Virus record (IMG/VR): IMGVR_UViG_3300031669_000291
Span: 1-20,675 of that record
DNA: 20,675 bases
DNA from: a virus
Direction: 5' to 3' (one strand)
Positions 1-19,751 of this stretch are shown here, piece after piece. The notes under the pieces were generated by a model. The model saw only the letters and a list, made by a program, of their open reading frames with translations, was not told the origin of the DNA and searched no databases. Numbering within the stretch: position 1 is the first letter of the stretch; each line of letters starts with the position of its first letter. The position numbers were made by a program, and so were the translations under genes.

Positions 1-2673
1 AAAGAAAAGTGTGTCGGCCTTGAAAAAAAATATGATCGATTCAGTAATATTTTTAAAGATGACTTTTATGTAGAATTCCAGGGTCACGTGCAAGAAGGCC
101 AAGAGAAGGTTAACAGGGCCTTTTATGATCGGTTGAGGGATAGGGGCGGTTTTCAACATGTGGTTACAAATGATTGCCACTATGTGCTTCCAGAACATGC
201 CAAGATTCAAACCCTTTTGAAGGGGATGGCCTATAAGAATACGGATGCGGGGCAGAGCTATACTTCTTGTGATTCTTTGTGGCTTAAGACAGCGGGGGAT
301 ATTTGGGATACTTTTAGAGAAAGTCATTCCTATTTGCCAGGTAGATTCGTATTAGATGGAATGAAAAACACAGAGGCGATTCTTGAGAAGGTAAAGGATT
401 TTAGATTACCCACCAAGAAATATTTGCCAATCTTCATGAAGGACTCTAGGGATACTTTTAACAGGCTCTCTGTGGGGCTTTTGAAAAAGTTTTTAGATGG
501 GGGAAAACTTTATGCCACGAAAGAAGAGTATACCGAAAGATTTAAGAAAGAATATAAGGTCATCGTTAAATATGGCCTGCAGGATTATTTCCTTATCGTT
601 TGGGATATTGTGCGTTTCGCTAATAACAACGGGATTTATATAGGACTTGGGCGCGGCTCTTCGACCGGGTGTCTTATTAGTTACCTTCTCGGGATTGTTC
701 GGGTTGATCCTCTTAGATACGATCTTATTTTCGAAAGATTTTTAAACGAAGCAAGATGCGAACAGGGCGAACTGGCCGACATAGATCTTGATGTGGAATC
801 TGACAGAAGAGATGAAATCAAACAATATATTTTTAAAAAGTATGGTAGGGAAAACGTATGTGAGATAGGGACATACGGAAGGATGAAGTTAAAAACTTCA
901 TTAATCGACATTGGTAAAGCCCTAGGGGTTGTGACCCAGAGAGAAATTTTAGATATCACCACGAAGTTGGATCTTAGCAGAGACGGTAAAGATTCTTTAG
1001 AGGCGGCCATTGATGCGTCACCAAAATTAAAAGAACATATGACGAACAATTTAGATTACGCCTTCGCGGTAGAAGAGATTACTGGCCAGATAAAGTCTCA
1101 GTCAATCCATCCGGCTGGAATGGTAATAGCACCCTATCCAGTACATCTGATTACACCGATTAAAACTCAGAGGGATAAAGATAGTGATGAAAGAGTAATC
1201 ACCACTCAGGCAGATGATAAGAGCATAACCCGTCAGGGGCTTATGAAGATGGATATCCTAGGTCTTAAAGAATACGACATTATCAGATTTATAATTGAAA
1301 ACGCAGGTCTGGAATTCAAGTCAACTGACTATGTTGAAAAAATAATGGAATTAGAAGATAGAAAGCCGGACGAGAGAATCTGGAAGTTATTTCAAGAAGG
1401 GAAGTCAGAGGGGGTGTTCCAATTTTCTTCTGAGGGGTTACAGCAATTACTCATACAGATACAGCCAGGCAAGATAGAGGACCTCATCGCAGCGAACGCC
1501 TTGTACAGGCCAGGGTGCTTAGATAACGGTTGGCATATCCAATATTGCAATCGAAAACACGGTAAAGAAAAAGTTGAGTACATGCATGAGAGTGTCGCAG
1601 ATGTTTTGAAAGACACTTACGGAGTTTGTGCCTATCAGGAACAGTTCATAAGTATCATTAATAGGTTGGGCGATATTAGCCTTTCAGATTCAGACACGAT
1701 CCGTGCAGCCCTTGGGAAAAAAGATGAAGCCAAACTCAAGAGGTTTAGGAAGACTTTCATTAAGAATGCTGCGAAAAAGGTTGGCAGTGTAGACGGGGCC
1801 AGGCGGATCTGGGAACAGTTAGAAAAATCTAGTAATTATTCGTTCACAAAGTCTCATTCTGCCGTTTATTCAATCCTGGCCTATGTTTCCCAATTTTTTA
1901 AGGTATATCACCCGGTTGAATTTTGGACAGCTCATCTCGAATGGGACGTGAGAAAAAATAGGCGCGACGATATGCTGCGTCACAAAAAGGCGGCGAGAGA
2001 AATGGGTGTCATCTTTAAACCGCCCCATATAAATCAGTCCGGGGTGTCTTTCAGGATAGTGGAAAAAGCGCCAGTCTGGTCCTTCATGGGTCTCAAGGGG
2101 CTTGGCCCGAAGGCTGCGGTGGAAATTGAAAAGCATCAGCCCTACGAGGATTTTGAAGACTTCTACAAACGCGTGAATAAAAGCAAGGTGAAGTTTAATA
2201 ATATTGTTTCTTTGATCTACGTGGGGGCGTTTGATTCGATGGGTGATAGAAGGGAATTCCTTAAAGCCCTTTTTAAATTGAAAACGAAAAAGCCACCATC
2301 TTTAAAAGATGAAGCGATGATGATGCAGTTTTATGAAATCATGGGTTTTTTTGAGCAAGGTATAAAGGAGGCGAGAGAGGTCGATGATTGCATCACTCAG
2401 GTGGATTTAGAAAACGTCCTGGTAGGCGAACAGGTGAGGATCGGTGGGATGTTGGTAAACATTAGACGCATCAAGACAAAAACAGGTGAGCCGATGGGAT
2501 TTGGAACGGTGGTAGATGTAGATGAGTCAATTGATTTAACTTTTTTCCCAAAAACTTGGGCAAAATATCGTGGTTCAATTTCAGATGGAAAAATTCTAAA
2601 GGTTGACGGGGTGAAATCAGGTTGGGGTGGCAAGACGAATGCGGTTGAAGTAGAAAAGGTTGAAGAATTTTGA
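1..2673 (+). CDS. dnaE: DNA polymerase III alpha subunit (DnaE-type, C family), 5' end missing
   Basis: This is a replicative C-family DNA polymerase. The frame is open to the left edge, so the GTG at 88 is not the true start; the visible part is 890 codons. The end of the PHP domain is present, with TNDCHY (codons at about 166-183) keeping the Asp and His that serve as metal ligands in proofreading PHP domains. The palm has GLGRGSSTG and the catalytic motif ADIDLD (Asp codons at 778 and 784), and the third acidic residue lies in KMDILGL (Asp at 1252). The fingers show GVFQFSSEG, ALYRPG, YGVCAYQEQ and FTKSHSAVYS. A helix-hairpin-helix (GLKGLGPKAA, near 2086-2115) and an OB-fold domain (about 2420-2640) follow. 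There is no long region beyond the OB fold for clamp-loader tau contact, so the enzyme may work without host tau. This last point is inference. The stop codon lies inside the repeated promoter-like element at 2666-2702. Confidence 0.95.
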   Translation, partial: KEKCVGLEKKYDRFSNIFKDDFYVEFQGHVQEGQEKVNRAFYDRLRDRGGFQHVVTNDCHYVLPEHAKIQTLLKGMAYKNTDAGQSYTSCDSLWLKTAGDIWDTFRESHSYLPGRFVLDGMKNTEAILEKVKDFRLPTKKYLPIFMKDSRDTFNRLSVGLLKKFLDGGKLYATKEEYTERFKKEYKVIVKYGLQDYFLIVWDIVRFANNNGIYIGLGRGSSTGCLISYLLGIVRVDPLRYDLIFERFLNEARCEQGELADIDLDVESDRRDEIKQYIFKKYGRENVCEIGTYGRMKLKTSLIDIGKALGVVTQREILDITTKLDLSRDGKDSLEAAIDASPKLKEHMTNNLDYAFAVEEITGQIKSQSIHPAGMVIAPYPVHLITPIKTQRDKDSDERVITTQADDKSITRQGLMKMDILGLKEYDIIRFIIENAGLEFKSTDYVEKIMELEDRKPDERIWKLFQEGKSEGVFQFSSEGLQQLLIQIQPGKIEDLIAANALYRPGCLDNGWHIQYCNRKHGKEKVEYMHESVADVLKDTYGVCAYQEQFISIINRLGDISLSDSDTIRAALGKKDEAKLKRFRKTFIKNAAKKVGSVDGARRIWEQLEKSSNYSFTKSHSAVYSILAYVSQFFKVYHPVEFWTAHLEWDVRKNRRDDMLRHKKAAREMGVIFKPPHINQSGVSFRIVEKAPVWSFMGLKGLGPKAAVEIEKHQPYEDFEDFYKRVNKSKVKFNNIVSLIYVGAFDSMGDRREFLKALFKLKTKKPPSLKDEAMMMQFYEIMGFFEQGIKEAREVDDCITQVDLENVLVGEQVRIGGMLVNIRRIKTKTGEPMGFGTVVDVDESIDLTFFPKTWAKYRGSISDGKILKVDGVKSGWGGKTNAVEVEKVEEF

Positions 2674-2702
2674 CCAGAAATTTTGGTTTTGTCGTAAATA
2701 TA
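2666..2702 (+). promoter_or_regulatory. Promoter-like 37-bp element, copy 1
   Basis: The element matches 31 of 37 positions with the sequence at 14736-14772. Shared blocks are AATTTTGACC, AAATT and GTTTTGTCGTA followed by an ATATA end. TTGACC resembles a -35 box, and TAAATA (2695-2700), 19 bases later, resembles a -10 or T4-late-type box. The GTG start of the next gene lies only seven bases after this box, which would give a leaderless transcript. It overlaps the polymerase stop codon. The promoter role is inferred from conservation and position only. Confidence 0.55.
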
Positions 2703-2706
2703 ATAT

Positions 2707-3147
2707 GTGAAAGATCTTACGTATGAAATTAAGGGCCTTGTGCCTGACCCGGTGGTTGTAGCTCTAAAAGATGAGTTGACGATTACAGAGGATATCGATG
2801 GAGAAGTGGACGAGGCGTCAGCCAGGTTCGGTTATTATGCGGTACTAGCTGAGAAGGCTGAGGCGAGATATGAAAAATTAAAGTTGGGGTTCAATCTTTG
2901 GGAATCAGATATTAAGGTCAGGAAAGACGAGCAGAGCGCCCTAGATAAAGAGAAGAAACTGACAGAGGCTCAAATGGGGGCTCATGTGATGTCTCAACCC
3001 AAATTCAAAGCATATCAATTGAAATTAATAGAGTTGAAAGAACAGAAGAATGTCATGAAGGCGATCTCAAAAGCTTTCGATAAAAAATCGGATTTGATTC
3101 AAACAAAGGCCTGCAATCGAAGGATAGAAGCGAAGGCCAACAAATAG
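2707..3147 (+). CDS. Small helical phage protein, possible recombination mediator
   Basis: The 146-residue product is rich in charged and helix-forming residues, with no membrane segment and no catalytic motif I can identify. Residues 35-140 look like a long two- or three-helix bundle or coiled coil. A Lys-Leu-Thr-Glu-Ala pattern followed by QPKFKAYQLKLIELKEQ resembles a family of small phage proteins found beside single-strand-binding and recombinase genes. Its place just before the SSB, RecA/UvsX and gp46/gp47-like genes makes a UvsY-like loading role possible, but this is inference from context and general helical character, not a clear match. The GTG start has no Shine-Dalgarno site. It sits directly behind the promoter-like element, so translation may be leaderless; an alternative is a downstream GTG at 2740. 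Confidence 0.6.
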   Translation: MKDLTYEIKGLVPDPVVVALKDELTITEDIDGEVDEASARFGYYAVLAEKAEARYEKLKLGFNLWESDIKVRKDEQSALDKEKKLTEAQMGAHVMSQPKFKAYQLKLIELKEQKNVMKAISKAFDKKSDLIQTKACNRRIEAKANK

Positions 3148-3961: not shown

Positions 3962-4903
3962 ATGGGCAAGGTATTAGAGAAGTTAAAGAAAGAAGTCGAG
4001 AGAATAGAGGCGAAAGAGAAGAGTAGAGGTGATTATACCAAGGTTGATTGGTTCAAGCCCGAGAAGGGTGACAATATCATTAGGGTTCTGCCTCACTGGT
4101 CAAAACCAGATGATTCATTATTCTACAAAACCATAAACATTCATTACGGCTTGCCCATCTCTCGCGATGGTAAAACATATAAGATTCCGGCCCGATGTTT
4201 AAGAGACTTAAATGAAGACTGCCCCCTTTGCGATGAGTATGAAAAACTTGGGAAGGGCGAAGGTAAAGACTTAAGAAGCAGTGAAAGAGCCATCTTCAAC
4301 ATTATTGATTTTAAAACGCAGACGGTGAAGCCATGGCAATGCCCAGAGACGGTTTATAAATATATATTCGCGATGTCCACCGAGATGGACGAGGACACGT
4401 GGGATCTAAAAACTGGCCGGAACTGGAAAATCAGGAAGAAGGTCGATCCATCAAAGCCTCCACAATTTGGTACTAAGTATGAAGTTTTCCCAGATATGAA
4501 GCAATCGGCAGTGCCTAAGAAATTACTTGGATTGACTGAGGATTTACCGGATCTCGATGGTGTGTATTGTGAGAATCATCGTGAGGCGATGCTTGATTTG
4601 TTGGGCTTAGAGGAAAAGTCAGAGGACGTGGATGACGATAATGAAAAAGAAGAAGTGTTCACAGAAAAACCAGTAAAAAAGCATAAGAAAAAGGCCAAGG
4701 CCGAAGTTGATGAAGAAGACGAAGACGAAGAAGAAAATGATGAAGAAGTGTTCACAGAAAAACCAGTAAAAAAGCATAAGAAAAAGGCCAAGGCCGAAGT
4801 TGATGAAGAAGACGAAGAAGAGGGTGAGGATGACAACATCGTTGCAAGCGTAAAGATAGAGGATAAAGAACTAGAGGATGAACTGAGAAGGCTTGGGGTA
4901 TAG
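3962..4903 (+). CDS. Single-stranded DNA-binding protein, T4 gp32-like, with duplicated charged tail
   Basis: This protein would coat single-stranded DNA and recruit replication and recombination partners. The core (about residues 25-215) shows the gp32-type order: VDWFKPEKGDNIIRVLPHW, then HYGL, then C-x7-CPLC, then VYKYIFAMS and a beta-rich end. His61, Cys79, Cys87 and Cys90 fit the His-Cys3 zinc site of gp32 closely in both spacing and position. After the core comes an acidic tail of about 90 residues, as expected for a partner-binding SSB tail, but it carries two copies of a Lys-rich/acidic unit (EEVFTEKPVKKHKKKAKAE plus an acidic run). A clear AGGAG-type site lies just before the ATG. 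It is followed directly by a small gene and then the recombinase. Confidence 0.88.
   Translation: MGKVLEKLKKEVERIEAKEKSRGDYTKVDWFKPEKGDNIIRVLPHWSKPDDSLFYKTINIHYGLPISRDGKTYKIPARCLRDLNEDCPLCDEYEKLGKGEGKDLRSSERAIFNIIDFKTQTVKPWQCPETVYKYIFAMSTEMDEDTWDLKTGRNWKIRKKVDPSKPPQFGTKYEVFPDMKQSAVPKKLLGLTEDLPDLDGVYCENHREAMLDLLGLEEKSEDVDDDNEKEEVFTEKPVKKHKKKAKAEVDEEDEDEEENDEEVFTEKPVKKHKKKAKAEVDEEDEEEGEDDNIVASVKIEDKELEDELRRLGV
4649..4725 (+). repeat. 77-bp perfect direct repeat, copy 1 (inside SSB tail)
   Basis: This copy is identical to 4742-4818 over all 77 bases, at an offset of 93 bases (31 codons), so the frame is kept. It encodes EEVFTEKPVKKHKKKAKAE plus the start of an acidic run. Confidence 0.95.
4742..4818 (+). 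repeat. 77-bp perfect direct repeat, copy 2 (inside SSB tail)
   Basis: This is the second copy of the repeat at 4649-4725. A 16-base acidic-codon linker separates the two. The copies diverge at 4726 (C) versus 4819 (A). Confidence 0.95.
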
Positions 4904-4904
4904 G

Positions 4905-5093
4905 TTGGAAAACGACAGAGTGAACTATAGCTTCAGCGTAAAGATTAACATGGGTAATTACGAATCCTGTTCTATTGGCGCGTCTTTATCCTCAGATGTA
5001 AAAAAAGGCGAATCTATAAGTCAGGCATTAGAACGAGTGTCTGAGATTGTAGAAAAGGAAGTTGATAGGCGCAGGGAAACGGTGAAAGAATGA
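4905..5093 (+). CDS. Small hypothetical protein between SSB and recombinase genes
   Basis: The product is about 62 residues from a TTG start with GGGG six bases upstream. A longer start at 4893 and a shorter GTG at 4920 are possible. The N-terminal part alternates polar and hydrophobic residues (YSFSVKINMGNYESCSIGAS), suggesting two beta strands. A single helix rich in Glu and Arg follows (ISQALERVSEIVEKEVDRRRE). The start lies at the SSB stop codon and the end overlaps the recombinase start by four bases (ATGA), so it is translationally coupled to both. This points to a helper role in the same pathway, but I do not recognise the function. Confidence 0.65.
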   Translation: MENDRVNYSFSVKINMGNYESCSIGASLSSDVKKGESISQALERVSEIVEKEVDRRRETVKE

Positions 5094-6571
5094 CAATCGC
5101 GACCGAGACGGGGAAAAAATTCACAAGACGTGGCAGAAAAAAGACAGAAAAGGCGGTCAAGGTTAAGGCTACGCCCGCATTCAAAGAAGTTGATGCAGAT
5201 TATTCCTCGTTCGTAAGAGAAGCGAGGAAGATGAAGAGCGATGCTATTATCTGTGGCTCAGATGAAGACGACCTGATTAGTGTAACCGATTGGATACCCG
5301 TTCCAGAATCTATCAGAGAGCTTATAGGCACACCAGGATTGCCTTGTGGCCTTATTACGATGGTATACGGAGAGCCGGATTGTTTGAGCGGAGATACTTT
5401 TATACCGTATAAGGTTTATTATAAAGGGCTTTGTCAGGATGCTACTGGGGGGACGCTTAAAAGTCTGTACCAAAGGTTCATTGATTTTGAAAGTGAGGAT
5501 CTTGATTTTTGTATTCCTTCTGTGGCCGGTGACGATAGTGTTTTCGTTAATAGGATAAAGGATGTCATTTATAGTGGGTATAAGAGTTGTTTTAAGATTA
5601 AAACCCTGTCCGGGTTTGAGCTAACTTCGACAGGTGATCATAGATTTTTTGTTGGGGGAGACAGAGAAACTTCATGGAGGGACCTAGATGAAACGAAATA
5701 TTCGCGGTTGGAGGAAATGTCCGTGGGTGATTCGGTGTACGTCTACGATGGGTCGAATATTGCGAAAGACACAATAGCATCTATTGAGCCAGCGGGCGAA
5801 ATGGATACATACGATATATCTTGCAAATCCCCGTTCAATAATTTTATCGCCAATGGGTTCGTAGTTCATAATTGCGGGAAGACTAGCCTGTGTAACGAGG
5901 CGTTGGCTGGGACGCAGAAAGAAGGGGGGCTAGCGATTCTTTTCCTTTCGGAATTAAAATACGATGAGAAACGTGCAGCGGCTCAGGGTGTGAGGTGTGA
6001 TGGAGGAGAGGGATCTCTGATCAAGTATCGTCCTAGAACAATCGAGCAGGTTGGCGATTATATCCACGAAGTTTCAAATATTATTAATAAGTCTGGAACG
6101 AAAAAGAAGGTTTGCATCGTTTGGGATTCGTTAGGCGCTACACCGTGTGAAAATGAATTGAATGCAGCTCGTACCGATTTCTCAATGGACGCAGCGAAGG
6201 CGATCACAGGTGTTCTTAGAAAAACGCAGGGCCTTATCAGAGACAAGAAGATTGCATTTGTGATGATAAATCAGGTCTACGATAAGACAGGCGTTACGTT
6301 TGGGAAAAAGACGACCACAAGGGGTGGAAAATCTCCAAGATATTACAGCGCCCTTCAGCTTAGTTTCGCTAAAATAGGGCGAATCCGTCCTCCAGGTGAA
6401 AAGTCTCCTGCACCGTTTTGTGGCATTAGAACCAAGATTGATGTTGAAAAAAACCATTTAGGGCAACCGTTTAAGTCGGCAGAGGTGCAAATTGATTGGA
6501 AGGGATTCGTTATTGATAGGAAGCCAGAGTATGCCCCAGAAGGACACTTCAATTCAGAAGTATCTGAATAA
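5090..6571 (+). CDS. RecA/UvsX-family recombinase interrupted by a mini-intein
   Basis: This is an ATP-dependent strand-exchange protein that would form filaments on SSB-cleared DNA. The 493-residue precursor consists of an N-extein (1-97), an intein (98-261) and a C-extein (262-493), so the spliced protein would be 329 residues. After removal of the intein the P-loop reads GEPDCGKTS, a normal Walker A. Further RecA features are a Glu in FLSELKYDEKRAA, the Walker B VCIVWDSLGA, MINQVYDKTGVTFG and a GGKSPRYYSALQL / KIDVEKNHLGQPF end. The N-terminus is short and very basic (KKFTRRGRKKTEK), unlike the usual RecA oligomerisation helix, so a phage RecA/UvsX relative is more likely than a bacterial RecA. 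The next gene starts inside its 3' end. Confidence 0.92.
   Translation: MTIATETGKKFTRRGRKKTEKAVKVKATPAFKEVDADYSSFVREARKMKSDAIICGSDEDDLISVTDWIPVPESIRELIGTPGLPCGLITMVYGEPDCLSGDTFIPYKVYYKGLCQDATGGTLKSLYQRFIDFESEDLDFCIPSVAGDDSVFVNRIKDVIYSGYKSCFKIKTLSGFELTSTGDHRFFVGGDRETSWRDLDETKYSRLEEMSVGDSVYVYDGSNIAKDTIASIEPAGEMDTYDISCKSPFNNFIANGFVVHNCGKTSLCNEALAGTQKEGGLAILFLSELKYDEKRAAAQGVRCDGGEGSLIKYRPRTIEQVGDYIHEVSNIINKSGTKKKVCIVWDSLGATPCENELNAARTDFSMDAAKAITGVLRKTQGLIRDKKIAFVMINQVYDKTGVTFGKKTTTRGGKSPRYYSALQLSFAKIGRIRPPGEKSPAPFCGIRTKIDVEKNHLGQPFKSAEVQIDWKGFVIDRKPEYAPEGHFNSEVSE
5381..5872 (+). mobile_element. Mini-intein (164 aa) in the recombinase P-loop
   Basis: This in-frame protein-splicing element begins with Cys (CLSGDTF, block A) and has a block B TSTGDHRFFV with the T-x-x-H signature. 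It ends YDIS...NNFIANGFVVHN followed by Cys, giving the canonical penultimate His, terminal Asn and +1 Cys. The stretch between blocks B and F is too short for a LAGLIDADG or HNH endonuclease, and none is seen, so it should splice but cannot spread by its own homing. The position usually occupied by a block F His before the NF pair is Asn here. Confidence 0.92.
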
Positions 6572-11172: not shown

Positions 11173-11533
11173 TATTGATAAAGCTGCGTATGCAAATATG
11201 CTAAGGCATTTAAGGTCGAGCAATTTCGTTTTAATTAAATTCATTGATGAATTCGTGGAACTGTCGGCTGCGCATCAGAATGCATTTGTCGCGTGGTTCC
11301 ATGAAAGCATTGCAGACGAGAGATGGAATGATTGTGCTTCGGATAGAATGCAGTATAAAGAGTTTATAAAGGCGTTGGTGATGCACTATAGTGGTTCTGA
11401 TTTAAGAAATGAACCCTCATTTAAGGATTTCGCATCTGAGATTGCGGGGTTTTTAAAGTCAGAACAATGCACGATAGCAAGCAAGGCACCGAAGAAAACA
11501 ATGAAAGAAATGTTAGAGGAGGCTTATGGCTGA
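11165..11533 (+). CDS. Hypothetical 122-aa protein
   Basis: The TTG start has GGGG seven bases upstream and lies in the last codons of the preceding gene. The product appears all-helical, with aromatic-rich segments (QNAFVAWFHESIADERWND), and ends with a basic/acidic tail (KAPKKTMKEMLEEAYG). It overlaps the next gene by eight bases. No family is recognised. Confidence 0.6.
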   Translation: MDSIDKAAYANMLRHLRSSNFVLIKFIDEFVELSAAHQNAFVAWFHESIADERWNDCASDRMQYKEFIKALVMHYSGSDLRNEPSFKDFASEIAGFLKSEQCTIASKAPKKTMKEMLEEAYG

Positions 11534-12047
11534 GGAAACAAAAGAACCGCGTATATCGAAAGAGGTCACTGATAAAGTGATCAAGAAAATAAACAAAGAC
11601 AAGGCGAGAGTAGATAAATTGTATGAGCTAACTCATTCTCTCTTTTTGTTCTCGAAAGAGGTCGACGTTAAAATTGAGACGCTGACTGATTTGTTGGTAG
11701 AACAGGGCGTCCTCCATCAAGATCGTATTGAAGAACTCTCCGATAAGAAACACAAGGTAAGAGCCAAGAAGGATGACGAAGAGATCACAAGGGGTGATAT
11801 TGTTTGGGTTAATTATAATGCAAAATTAGATGGTGAAGTTGAGGCGATCCAAGAAGTTGATTTGCCTATTCGTGTGGGTTCTGGAGCCATAGCGTTTGAG
11901 ACGGCATTGATTGGAAAGACTGCGAATTCGTGCGTTACGTTCAAAGATGAGTTCAGAGATAAAAAATATCCACAATGGGTCGGCAAAGAAGTCCTTTTTG
12001 AGATTGAAATCGTGAAGGTGAAAACGAACATAGAGGCGGTGCAATGA
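11526..12047 (+). CDS. Protein with trigger-factor/FKBP-like C-terminal domain
   Basis: The 173-residue product has two parts. Residues 1-85 are helical and charged. Residues 87-167 follow the order of the FKBP-type peptidyl-prolyl isomerase domain of trigger factor: ITRGDIVWVNYNAKLDGEVE, then LPIRVGSGAIAFETALIGK, then a short loop, then WVGKEVLFEIEIVKVK. The paired GD-x-V, VGSG...FE..LIGK and GK-x-x-F-x-x-x-V-x-V-K features are typical. Several aromatic residues of the isomerase pocket cannot be confirmed by eye, so it may be a folding or binding domain without activity. A role in folding phage proteins is inference. It overlaps both neighbours by a few bases. Confidence 0.6.
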   Translation: MAEETKEPRISKEVTDKVIKKINKDKARVDKLYELTHSLFLFSKEVDVKIETLTDLLVEQGVLHQDRIEELSDKKHKVRAKKDDEEITRGDIVWVNYNAKLDGEVEAIQEVDLPIRVGSGAIAFETALIGKTANSCVTFKDEFRDKKYPQWVGKEVLFEIEIVKVKTNIEAVQ

Positions 12048-14469: not shown

Positions 14470-14679
14470 ATGTCTAGAAAGAACCAATCCCATCGAAAAA
14501 ATGAAAGACGAGCCCTAGTCCTATCTAAAAATGAAAAGTTATTAGAGCAAGCCAAAAAGGGTCAGCTCCCATCCCACCTTAAGGATCAAATAGGTATGAC
14601 AGATAGAGTGAAGAGTTGGATTGATTCTATTGAGAAAGAGAATGAGTTATTGAAGAAACGGATTGGTGATGGTGGATAA
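14470..14679 (+). CDS. Hypothetical 69-aa basic protein
   Basis: The ATG is preceded by an AGAAG site. The N-terminus is very basic (MSRKNQSHRKNERRALVL), followed by a helix ending SIEKENELLKKRIGDGG, which could form a short coiled coil. A nucleic-acid-binding role is possible from charge alone. Confidence 0.5.
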   Translation: MSRKNQSHRKNERRALVLSKNEKLLEQAKKGQLPSHLKDQIGMTDRVKSWIDSIEKENELLKKRIGDGG

Positions 14680-14680
14680 T

Positions 14681-14743
14681 GTGATCATCTGGGTAGGTTC
14701 GCTCATTGTCTTAATTTCAATCTTTTATTTCAATCAATTTTGA
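14681..14743 (+). CDS. Possible 20-aa hydrophobic membrane peptide
   Basis: This short ORF starts at a GTG one base after the previous stop, with GGTGG upstream, and encodes MIIWVGSLIVLISIFYFNQF, essentially one transmembrane helix. An in-frame GTG at 14672 would add three residues. Its stop lies inside the promoter-like element at 14736-14772. The uniform hydrophobicity favours a real gene, but its length makes chance possible. Confidence 0.3.
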   Translation: MIIWVGSLIVLISIFYFNQF

Positions 14744-14772
14744 CCTTAAATTAAAGTTTTGTCGTATATATA
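14736..14772 (+). promoter_or_regulatory. Promoter-like 37-bp element, copy 2
   Basis: The element matches 31 of 37 positions with 2666-2702. TTGACC (14740-14745) and TATATA (14765-14770) are 19 bases apart. The ATG of the lipoprotein gene is eight bases after the second box, too close for a normal leader. AGGGG (14772-14776) touches the ATG with a single base between, a poor Shine-Dalgarno spacing. The promoter role is inferred. Confidence 0.55.
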
Positions 14773-14777
14773 GGGGT

Positions 14778-15095
14778 ATGAAGTATTTAATAGCCCTGTT
14801 ATTATCTGCGTGCGCAGCTCAGAAACCGTTACTATCCCCTGTCTCAGCCCATCTTAATTGTTACGGCAAGGATATCAAAACTCCATGGCTTTCATTAGTA
14901 GCAAAGCCAGACAGCATTGTTCAAAACAGCAATTTCATCGAAGTTAAAGACGGGTTCGGTAGAACGGTGATGAAGGCAAGCGGTAATTGCGTACTGAGGT
15001 ATTGGCACGAGGATGAATTAGCGATTCTAAAAAGCCAAATGGAAAGGGTAGAAAGTGAAAAGAATACCAAAGAGGAAAAGAAGAAGAGGAAATGA
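14778..15095 (+). CDS. Small lipoprotein, possible outer-membrane lysis or envelope protein
   Basis: The 105-residue product begins MKYLIALLLSAC: one Lys, a short hydrophobic stretch and a lipobox Leu-Ser-Ala-Cys with Cys12 as the lipidated residue. The signal is short but typical of small phage lipoproteins such as o-spanins. The mature part has two further Cys (in LNCYGKD and GNCVLRY) that could form a disulfide, and it ends in a charged helix (MERVESEKNTKEEKKKRK). A spanin role is only one option, and no endolysin or i-spanin is seen in the window. Its own promoter-like element lies directly upstream. Confidence 0.65.
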   Translation: MKYLIALLLSACAAQKPLLSPVSAHLNCYGKDIKTPWLSLVAKPDSIVQNSNFIEVKDGFGRTVMKASGNCVLRYWHEDELAILKSQMERVESEKNTKEEKKKRK

Positions 15096-16911: not shown

Positions 16912-17621
16912 CAGAAACCTCTATCTGGATAGCAATCGCCGCTATTTCTGGTTTCGCATTTGGTAGTTTCAGACCGTCTTGGGTCAGAAAGGGATTGAAT
17001 CGGTATATCGACACGCGGGCAAACGAAAAGTTGAAGGAATTGCTACTCGGGAGAGAAATTCAGTTCAAATTGGAACGGATTGAATCGCAAGTAAAAGCGG
17101 CACAAACGCGCGAGAGTGCAGCGAAGGCGAAAAAGGATGCCAGGCCCCTAAACAAACCGAATCAAATCACTCAGCGACCTATTACCGCTATAAAAAGGGC
17201 AGTTGTAAGTAATAACGAGACTTCAAATTCAAAAAGAAATTCAAAACAGCCAAAAAACAAAGTCCCTTACATATCAGGCGTCATAAATAGAGCCGGATTG
17301 ATCATGAAAGACTTGAAGAAGCCAAGGAAAGTGGTGAAGCGAGAACAGGTTGAACAGGTTGAACAGGTGAAACAGAATGTTTCGCCACCGTCACCACCTA
17401 CCCCACCTATCGATAGGGCATTTGAGCATATATTCTACGGAACACAGCTCACAGTGGGGCAGTTCAGAGTTGTCTCGGGTTTATCAAAGGGGATGCACAG
17501 GTTAGAGGTGATTCAAAATCAATTATACGTGGATAATAAACTATACCCAGCCAATGTGGGTGATTTAGAACGTATCAAAGCTTTAGCTAGAGAGGGGCAT
17601 TTAGCAAATGGCACCGCCTGA
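16908..17621 (+). CDS. Hypothetical membrane-anchored protein with low-complexity linker
   Basis: The 237-residue product has one N-terminal membrane helix (about residues 6-21, IWIAIAAISGFAFGSF) followed by basic residues, suggesting an anchor with the rest in the cytoplasm. Residues 50-165 are a basic, low-complexity linker with a short helix (KLERIESQVKAAQTRES), a small EQVEQVEQV repeat (9-bp tandem units at about 17344-17370) and a Pro-rich stretch (SPPSPPTPP). Residues 170-237 form a compact domain (LTVGQFRVVSGLSKGMHRLEVIQ). It overlaps the next gene by 14 bases. The role is unknown. Confidence 0.55.
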   Translation: MTETSIWIAIAAISGFAFGSFRPSWVRKGLNRYIDTRANEKLKELLLGREIQFKLERIESQVKAAQTRESAAKAKKDARPLNKPNQITQRPITAIKRAVVSNNETSNSKRNSKQPKNKVPYISGVINRAGLIMKDLKKPRKVVKREQVEQVEQVKQNVSPPSPPTPPIDRAFEHIFYGTQLTVGQFRVVSGLSKGMHRLEVIQNQLYVDNKLYPANVGDLERIKALAREGHLANGTA

Positions 17622-18195
17622 TCCAAACATTGATCCTGCTGCATCTTGGAAGTTGAGGGAAATTTGCCCAAAGGACTTCTTTGAACAGTTACAAGAGGCG
17701 CAGCATCAGCCAGAAGATTACAATCATCTTATTGCAAGAACTATGAACGAACTATGCAGTTTTCTTAGTTCGACTGTCATCACCCCGCTCATTCAAGACG
17801 GTGGCGTAGCTTATTACAATGATGTTCTTCGAACTAAAAAACTATCGACGCATAGGGCTACGGTCGTAGGTGCATATTATGGATTGAATCAGTCTTCCAG
17901 GTATTTAAAAATTGCAGATGTCACTTCAGCCGGTTCTCAGGGATTTTTCATCCCAAGACCCGCCACTATTACAGGGATGTGGGCGAAATCCAGGTCAACT
18001 TCGAGTTGGACGTTTGAAGCCAGAAAGAACGGTGTGGCGACAGCCATTTCCTCAATTTCTGTCAGTTCAAGTTTCGGTTCTGCCATTGCATTGGACGTAG
18101 ATTTAAGTGCAGGGGATCATTTACAACTTTATCTTTCAGGGACGGGGATTGATCATCCGATAGTGGCTTGTGAGTTAGCTTGGCGACTACCATAA
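17608..18195 (+). CDS. Virion/tail-associated protein with beta-rich C-terminal domain
   Basis: The 195-residue product has a helical N-terminal part (residues 1-60) and a beta-rich C-terminal domain (about 85-195). Its end aligns by eye with the end of the protein at 18210-19751: WT-x-E-x-RKNG, then AGD-x-x-Q-x-Y-x-x-G, then ID-x-P and E-x-A-x-R. Such repeats are typical of phage tail-fibre or head-decoration tips that bind receptors or trimerise. A virion role is inferred from the shared domain and position. Confidence 0.7.
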   Translation: MAPPDPNIDPAASWKLREICPKDFFEQLQEAQHQPEDYNHLIARTMNELCSFLSSTVITPLIQDGGVAYYNDVLRTKKLSTHRATVVGAYYGLNQSSRYLKIADVTSAGSQGFFIPRPATITGMWAKSRSTSSWTFEARKNGVATAISSISVSSSFGSAIALDVDLSAGDHLQLYLSGTGIDHPIVACELAWRLP

Positions 18196-18209: not shown

Positions 18210-19751
18210 ATGAGTTTCATAAGAATAACAGAACCGAACGTATCAAGCGTAGACATTGATGATTTAGGAATAACGATAGCCCAAGCGGCCACAGTGGTTC
18301 TTTCAGACCAGTTCAATGTGGCTGATTTATATTTAAGTGCAGATTTAGAGGCTCTAGTTATAGCGGGCACACTTGATATCGAAATCGATTTTGGAACGGG
18401 TTACACGGCAGTTGCAGCGGTTGATTATACGAATCGAGATACTTTAGGAGCCTTCCTTAATATTTTTGAAATCACAAATGAAGATAACAATGAAGATTTG
18501 GTAGACGGAAGTGAAGTGAACGCATCCGGTCCAGGCGCGACACCGCTTCATATTCATGACGCTAGATATTATACAGAGACAGAACTAGGTAATTCGGGTG
18601 CAGGAACCAATGGTGCCCTACTCGTAGGGGCAGACGATACTGCTTGCGTAATAGAGGGAACGGCAGCGTTCACCACGGTTCAAGGTGCAATTGAGGCGCT
18701 TTGTGCATTTATTACATCCGGTGCGATGGATGATTTAGATACGGTTTATTCAAACGATTCAGATGGGCGGATGGATGTCGATGAATCGTCCAAGCCTTTA
18801 GATTTCCGTTCTGACAATGCAAATGACATCGGTATATCCAGAACAAACGGCGGTGACATCCAAGACATGCTCAGGGCCGATGTTTCAGCTAGTGAGTTAT
18901 TAATTGGAGCCCTGGTCTCAGGTGCATTGGCTCAAGTAAATACAAGAGTTTTAGGCGATTTATATGTAGATGGAAATATCACGTTTGTAGGAACGATCAC
19001 TGACACGACAGTGGACAACATGAACGTGGTTAATTCTGAAATTAGAATGCGTGAAGGTGCTGCAACGGGTGGTGATGCAGCACTTCTTGTAGAGCGGGGT
19101 TCCACGGGCCCGGACGCCTGTGTCAATTGGAACGAAACCACAGACAGATGGCAGCAGGGGATAGTTGGAACCAAATCTACAATTCCAGGGATTGAAAACG
19201 ACGAAGACATAGAGGGTGTCTGGTGTTTCGGTGGTGTAGATGATACCGAGCCCGATATTTGTTTAGTTGAAAAGAATGACGCAGCCCCTCCTACAGCGAA
19301 TCTGGGCGGAGCAGGCGAAGTCCCAATGGCTATGATGGAAAATGGACTAATGGCCATTTACGATAAATCCAATTCCAGAAATAAATGGTTATCGGTCCAG
19401 AGAAACTGGATGTATTTTACTGGTAGAGATAACGCTAACAACTCAAACGAGTATGCTCGTTCGGTTGGTACGTTCACTTCAAACCAGACAGGAATTCGAT
19501 TGATTCGAAAGTCCACGTTGGTAGGCATGTCGATTCAAACGAACGGTGTAGAAACTTGGACGGCGGAGGTCCGAAAGAACGGGACTGTGACTGTCCAGGC
19601 TTCACTGGTAGCCACGGCGGTCGCTGGCAATCAGACTGGGACGCTCAATGTGGATTTTGACGCAGGCGATGAAATTCAAGTCTACGTCAATGGCTCCATG
19701 ATTGATCGGCCTGTAATCAAATTAGAATTCGCATATAGATTTGCGGCTTAA
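18210..19751 (+). CDS. Tail-fibre-like structural protein
   Basis: The 513-residue product has a modular fibre layout. Residues 1-60 form an N-terminal domain also seen at the start of the gene at 20223 (DIDDLGITI...LSDQF...GTLD). HIHDARYYTETEL (about 114-126) is a common linker motif in phage fibres. The middle holds VDGNITFVGTITDTTV and LLVERGSTGPDACVNWNE, typical of beta-stranded fibre shafts. The C-terminal domain (about 400-513) is shared with the protein at 17608. Most of the chain is beta-rich with few charged helices. It probably takes part in host attachment; the receptor is unknown. GGGGG lies upstream of the ATG. Confidence 0.8.
   Translation: MSFIRITEPNVSSVDIDDLGITIAQAATVVLSDQFNVADLYLSADLEALVIAGTLDIEIDFGTGYTAVAAVDYTNRDTLGAFLNIFEITNEDNNEDLVDGSEVNASGPGATPLHIHDARYYTETELGNSGAGTNGALLVGADDTACVIEGTAAFTTVQGAIEALCAFITSGAMDDLDTVYSNDSDGRMDVDESSKPLDFRSDNANDIGISRTNGGDIQDMLRADVSASELLIGALVSGALAQVNTRVLGDLYVDGNITFVGTITDTTVDNMNVVNSEIRMREGAATGGDAALLVERGSTGPDACVNWNETTDRWQQGIVGTKSTIPGIENDEDIEGVWCFGGVDDTEPDICLVEKNDAAPPTANLGGAGEVPMAMMENGLMAIYDKSNSRNKWLSVQRNWMYFTGRDNANNSNEYARSVGTFTSNQTGIRLIRKSTLVGMSIQTNGVETWTAEVRKNGTVTVQASLVATAVAGNQTGTLNVDFDAGDEIQVYVNGSMIDRPVIKLEFAYRFAA

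Follow-up and report, generated by a model that had tools for sequence, protein, structure and literature searches.

T7-family promoters resemble one another within a phage and differ between related phages, bacterial ECF promoters often have CGT in their -10 element, and leaderless messages are known from phages in other contexts. In phages phiEco32 and 7-11, middle/late promoters are read by the phage-encoded ECF-like sigma factors phi32_gp36 and SaPh711_gp47, at the short, -10-like motif tAATGTAtA in phiEco32 and the bipartite motif GTAAtg-(16)-aCTA in 7-11, with transcription starting 6-9 bases past the motif; phage ECF-like sigma factors that serve a small number of phage-specific promoters are thus a known kind (PMC8948821, PMC4331800). 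At the middle promoters of T4, a MotA box replaces the -35 element beside a stringent sigma-70 -10 element (PMC2988021). Among bacterial ECF promoters, that of SigW reads TGAAAC-N16,17-CGTA (PMC2375139).

Here, we describe a pair of candidate promoters from an uncultured phage that combines two matched sites near a polymerase gene, a fixed -10 box, a private upstream half and a spacing suggestive of leaderless messages, a combination for which no description was found in the open-licence papers searched; nor did the open-licence literature searched for leaderless phage promoters describe such a set. As is the case for T7-family promoters, the sites are alike within a phage and different between relatives; unlike them, they carry a box that looks bacterial. 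With the promoters of phiEco32 and 7-11 they share an apparent phage specificity, low copy number, a short -10-like motif with a predicted transcription start a few bases beyond it, and versions that differ between related phages (PMC8948821, PMC4331800). Unlike in those phages, the sites number two rather than six to eight, and leaderless messages are not mentioned in either report (PMC8948821, PMC4331800). Neither tAATGTAtA nor GTAAtg-16-aCTA is present at the aligned sites, which read TCGTATAAY and have other upstream halves. The conserved -10, the phage-specific box in the place of the -35 and the putative prereplicative phase are reminiscent of T4 middle promoters, which, in contrast, number nearly 60 (PMC2988021); when the MotA box, (a/t)3TGCTTtA at 12 +/- 1 bases before the -10, was looked for, no TGCTT was present in any of the twelve paired sites. 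Finally, the sites resemble the SigW promoter in having CGTA at -10 and a short upstream motif some 16-17 bases away (PMC2375139), and differ from bacterial ECF promoters in that the upstream half is not TGAAAC or GGAAC and varies from phage to phage.

The window analysed is a complete viral record of 20,675 bases, and the copy counts given for it cover that sequence only. It is a phage replication region that encodes dnaE (DNA polymerase III alpha; 1-2673, plus strand, its 5′ end lying off the record), a gene of unknown function assigned to phrog_2058 (2707-3147, plus strand; hereafter gene 2), a further unknown gene, an SSB-like protein and a RecA/UvsX-like protein with an intein domain, together with a metallophosphatase and an SMC-like ATPase that are likely an SbcD/SbcC or gp47/gp46 pair, a ParB-like protein and many small genes. 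An earlier note on this DNA had pointed to two similar 37-base elements, and these were confirmed on the plus strand at 2666-2702 (AATTTTGACCAGAAATTTTGGTTTTGTCGTAAATATA) and 14736-14772 (AATTTTGACCTTAAATTAAAGTTTTGTCGTATATATA) by direct reading, pattern scan and shuffles, with identity at 31 of 37 positions. Also as claimed, TTGACC, the -35-like half (2670-2675 in the first copy and 14740-14745 in the second), is separated from TAWATA by 19 bases in both copies, and both overlap coding ends. In the first copy, the TGA contained in TTTTGACC (2671-2673) is the stop codon of dnaE, and in the second the TGA ends a 24-codon hydrophobic open reading frame (14669-14743). The distances of 4 and 5 bases from element to start codon held as well. 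The -10-like box of the first copy (TCGTAAATA, 2692-2700), which is of the same kind as the TCGTATAAY of relatives, is followed at 6 bases by the GTG of gene 2 (2707), a start backed by an N-terminus, M-K/R-D-L, that is conserved in relatives; that of the second copy (TCGTATATA, 14762-14770) is followed at 7 bases by the ATG of a gene for a small predicted lipoprotein (14778-15095, plus strand; MKYLIALLLSAC...), which is the first of another run of small genes.

Among 233 dinucleotide-shuffled versions of the window, no non-overlapping pair of 37-mers agreed at more than 29 of 37 positions, compared to 31 of 37 for the real twins. Only one pair in the real window scores higher, and it falls within a coding repeat of 93 bases in the SSB-like gene. 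Scanned with the element pattern, the window gave exactly two matches and 100 shuffles gave none, and a pattern scan of the whole record yielded no third copy. The sequence that the earlier note had proposed to scan for is private to this genome, other phages having a different one: the exact element had zero matches in the viral contigs searched and no match at up to 3 mismatches in eleven relatives, and its sequence is therefore genome-specific. Single matches among the matches listed in a loose pattern scan of viral contigs were taken as mostly chance and left unused.

Searches with dnaE and gene 2 found approximately 20 viral contigs of the same group, which are uncultured and partly incomplete, and whose loci are mutually related, so that probabilities assuming independence are too small. 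The window's SSB protein, used as a query, returned no relatives; gene 2 had no match among 50,697 isolate phage records; and the matches of dnaE in bacterial genomes, at only ~30% and spread over many phyla, indicated no host. Below, G002, G004, G005, G006, G007, G008, G009 and G010 denote the records of L123, L128, L130, L138, L178, L131, L132 and L137, respectively, and their coordinates are record coordinates. Most of the uncultured phages sharing dnaE have an element directly 3′ of the dnaE stop codon, ahead of gene 2. When this element was taken from each relative and scanned against its own genome, a second copy was found in five, namely G004 (38614 and 34103, 38 of 39 bases alike), G008 (46245 and 41640, 33 of 34 bases alike), G007 (82631 and 77466), L129 (7539 and 3329) and G002 (4418 and 23089, with a weaker third site at 23904). 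The same twins were recovered independently by an all-against-all comparison of upstream regions. In four of these genomes (G004, G007, G008 and L129) the second copy is found just 5′ of dnaE and a P-loop gene follows, in G008 after an HNH-like gene that the copy directly precedes. Strong copies number exactly two in both G004 (110 kb) and G007 (108 kb); in G004 no other site on either strand scored above the reversed-sequence control, and in the other twin genomes the best further matches were slightly above that control and far below the twins. No twin was found between the gene-2 site and the site upstream of dnaE in G005, G006, G009 and G010. Because most twin-bearing relatives have a site upstream of dnaE, a place that is off the window's record, a third copy is predicted for the window phage beyond the left end of that record, ahead of a gene whose product should start with MW(I/V)...G..GSGK.

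A box like TCGTATAAC recurs ahead of gene 2 in the relatives, whereas the window's own element is absent there, and the part shared across genomes is the -10-like box TCGTATAAY. The word CGTATAA occurs within 80 bases ahead of gene 2 at 6 of 19 loci, compared to 0.04 expected and none for the reversed pattern, the six including the near relatives L133 and L135 and thus representing five or so independent cases. This signal is one of position only, CGTATAA and similar words being unenriched in whole-genome counts of the relatives. With sites aligned on the -10-like box, twins were identical at 27.5 of 33 positions within genomes versus 13.4 between genomes. In the upstream 24 bases the corresponding values were 19.0 and 7.3, the latter near the level of unrelated sequence, while the -10 part was identical at 6.2 of 9 positions even between genomes. 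The box is thus common to the group, and each phage has an upstream half of its own that its two sites share, as expected if the reader of both sites is phage-encoded or host-specific. The element and its reader therefore appear to change together between related phages.

The distance from box to start codon has two modes. At ten sites (both of the window, both of G004, both of G008, the upstream site of G007, two of G002, and L122) it is 5-7 bases, and no ribosome-binding site lies downstream of the box at any of them, the two ribosome-site (SD) flags in G002 overlapping the box itself and so not being on the presumed message. At six others (gene 2 of G007, both sites of L129, L340, L133 and L135) it is 16-35 bases, and all six have a ribosome-binding site; no site has a gap of 8-15 bases. 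Most other genes of the window have a ribosome site. Transcription starting ~7 bases past the box would explain both modes, such that short-gap sites would be leaderless and long-gap sites would have a short leader fitting the ribosome site. The twin pattern, its recurrence, the concerted divergence, the shared box and the two-mode start distance are all features of the DNA itself. They lend support to two proposals of the earlier note, that of a phage-specific promoter class, to which the genome-specific twins and the shared box point, and that of leaderless or nearly leaderless mRNAs, since the box-to-start distance is fixed and a leader with a ribosome site is found only where the start codon is further away. 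At the window's sites both the spacing and the missing ribosome sites fit, and gene 2 (2707) and the gene at 14778 are predicted to give leaderless mRNAs. A lack of further copies in the genome, which the same note would have held against the class, would have been a misleading yardstick, since these phages carry very few copies, at two in a genome of 110 kb.

As for what could read the element, it is not a canonical sigma-70 promoter. A scan for TTGACA-like and TATAAT-like hexamers at a spacing of 16-18 did not list the plus-strand twin sites, because their hexamers are 19 apart and because the -35 is not TTGACA-like in L129, G007 and G008. No T7-type single-subunit RNA polymerase was found in these phages, a weak negative given that the control was silent. 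A small ECF-like sigma factor is encoded in five larger relatives (G004, G005, G007, G008 and G009), matching TIGR02937 at 3.5e-12 and 4.4e-13 in two of the five; sigma-70-family factors were thus found in relatives only, the window's record being a fragment with no sigma gene. The ECF-like gene is at 24271-23714 in G004 and at 36750-36211 in G008, and in these two genomes and G007 it belongs to an oppositely read block that carries multi-copy host-type promoters and looks early, as would befit an early gene. RACC-N17-CGTA is present in the twins of the window and of L129, and G006 (115 kb) has neither the factor nor a twin. On these grounds we tentatively propose, with slightly less than even confidence, that the phage's ECF-like factor reads the element. 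Counting against this assignment, G005 and G009 have the factor and no clear twin, G002 has twin-like sites and no such factor in the 60 kb of it analysed, a regulon of only two members is unusual for a sigma factor, and a box ending in TATAAY could be read by host sigma-70. A FliA/WhiG-like sigma factor, with a zinc ribbon in most cases, is encoded in G002, G004, G005, G006 and G007. Considered as a reader of the element, it may have other cognate sites, as the enrichment of TCCGATA suggests. In these five genomes this FliA-like -10 box is enriched ahead of gene starts (15/52, 2.7e-9), several of the matches falling inside coding sequence.

The element is very probably a promoter, either ECF-like-read or T4-like. 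The fuller account that we favour, and to which we attach moderate confidence, is that the twins form a phage-specific promoter class of very low copy number, with non-standard polymerase specificity, leaderless mRNAs and middle timing. An ECF-like sigma factor, the most likely reader, would be made from early genes and join RNA polymerase, and the holoenzyme would recognise both the genome-specific upstream half, ~35 bases before the transcription start, and the conserved -10 box TCGTA(T/A)AY. Transcription would start ~7 bases past the box, at the start codon, such that gene 2 and the lipoprotein gene at 14778 would have mRNAs beginning with that codon. As middle promoters, the pair would turn on the replication genes after the host-type early promoters and before the late genes. 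Promoter activity, exact start site and timing are what we infer from sequence, and the ECF-like factor as reader is the least certain part of the account. The more specific picture, in which a phage sigma factor serves just two or three promoters near the replicative polymerase gene, changes its upstream specificity from phage to phage jointly with those promoters and yields leaderless mRNAs, is possible but doubtful.

The rival that survives best, which we consider rather unlikely, is that the twins are T4-like middle promoters, at which host sigma-70 would read TATAAY and a putative phage activator on the upstream half would replace the -35 contact in a MotA/AsiA-like manner. The middle promoters of T4 follow the same logic of a conserved -10 with an upstream half that diverges (PMC2988021), the upstream half covaries between both sites of each genome, and the box ends in TATAAY, that of G004 holding a perfect TATAAT. 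However, the hexamer is preceded by a conserved CG, a pair of bases that sigma-70, the extension of which is TGn, does not read, and T4 has dozens of such sites compared to two in these phages. It is improbable that the elements are instead operators to which a phage repressor or replication regulator binds, with an incidental spacing to the start codon. Two sites per genome would suit an operator, and the window's copies have partial dyad symmetry around CCAGAAATTTTGG and CCTTAAATTAAAG; yet no dyad is shared with the remaining genomes, what they have most in common is a -10-like box spaced from the start codon as in a promoter, and these phages have other, clearly palindromic operator-like repeats. 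Duplication or gene conversion, making the copies alike through recombination and without joint function, would also leave them more alike within than between genomes. We regard it as very improbable, as the likeness in G004 runs from the -35-like bases to the start codon with unrelated flanks, and both the -10 box and its spacing from the start codon are conserved between genomes. Although AT-rich promoter regions can resemble one another, chance resemblance of two such stretches ahead of genes has a negligible probability and is contradicted by an identity (31/37) above the best of 233 shuffles (29) and by the recurrence of the pattern in relatives.

Should the favoured account hold, a switch for replication genes could be read from sequence alone in an uncultured phage group that has no close relative in the isolate collection searched. 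The group would also offer a natural set of diverged reader-promoter pairs, with the -10 box fixed and the upstream half free to change, whose specificity could be tested by exchanging parts between pairs in vitro; were the reader a phage sigma factor with two or three promoters, nature would have supplied a series of matched sigma-promoter pairs. The two-mode start-codon distance would, likewise, point to leaderless mRNAs of metagenomic phages from sequence alone.

Several other features of these genomes were observed. The multi-copy host-type promoter repeats (L219-L220 in G004, L231-L236 in G007, L246-L247 in G008 and L237-L242 in G006, for example TTGACATnnTGTAGTACATGTAGTACACT) are likely early promoters, and in G004, G007 and G008 lie on the strand opposite the replication genes. 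Palindromic repeats that are alike across genomes, GTTTCTACGTAGAAAC in many copies in G006 (L237-L242), AACTTCGACGTAGAAGTT in G004 (L220) and GTTTCGACGTCGAAAC in G009 (L249-L250), look like operators. Split tblastn matches revealed large in-frame inserts, possibly inteins, in dnaE of G007 (78348-82625) and L123 (356-4417). In the window, the repeat in the SSB-like gene is a 93-base tandem duplication (4621-4806, 87% identical) in the acidic tail, and the RecA/UvsX-like gene (5090-6571) has an intein-splicing domain (PF14890, scoring just below the cut-off) inside its ATP-binding region. The protein encoded at 11526-12047 reads by eye like an FKBP-type peptidyl-prolyl isomerase domain, with no Pfam match at 0.01. 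The neighbouring proteins of 17608-18195 and 18210-19751 have a similar C-terminal domain (..W.FEARKNG.. and ..WTAEVRKNG..) and are probably virion surface or tail proteins.
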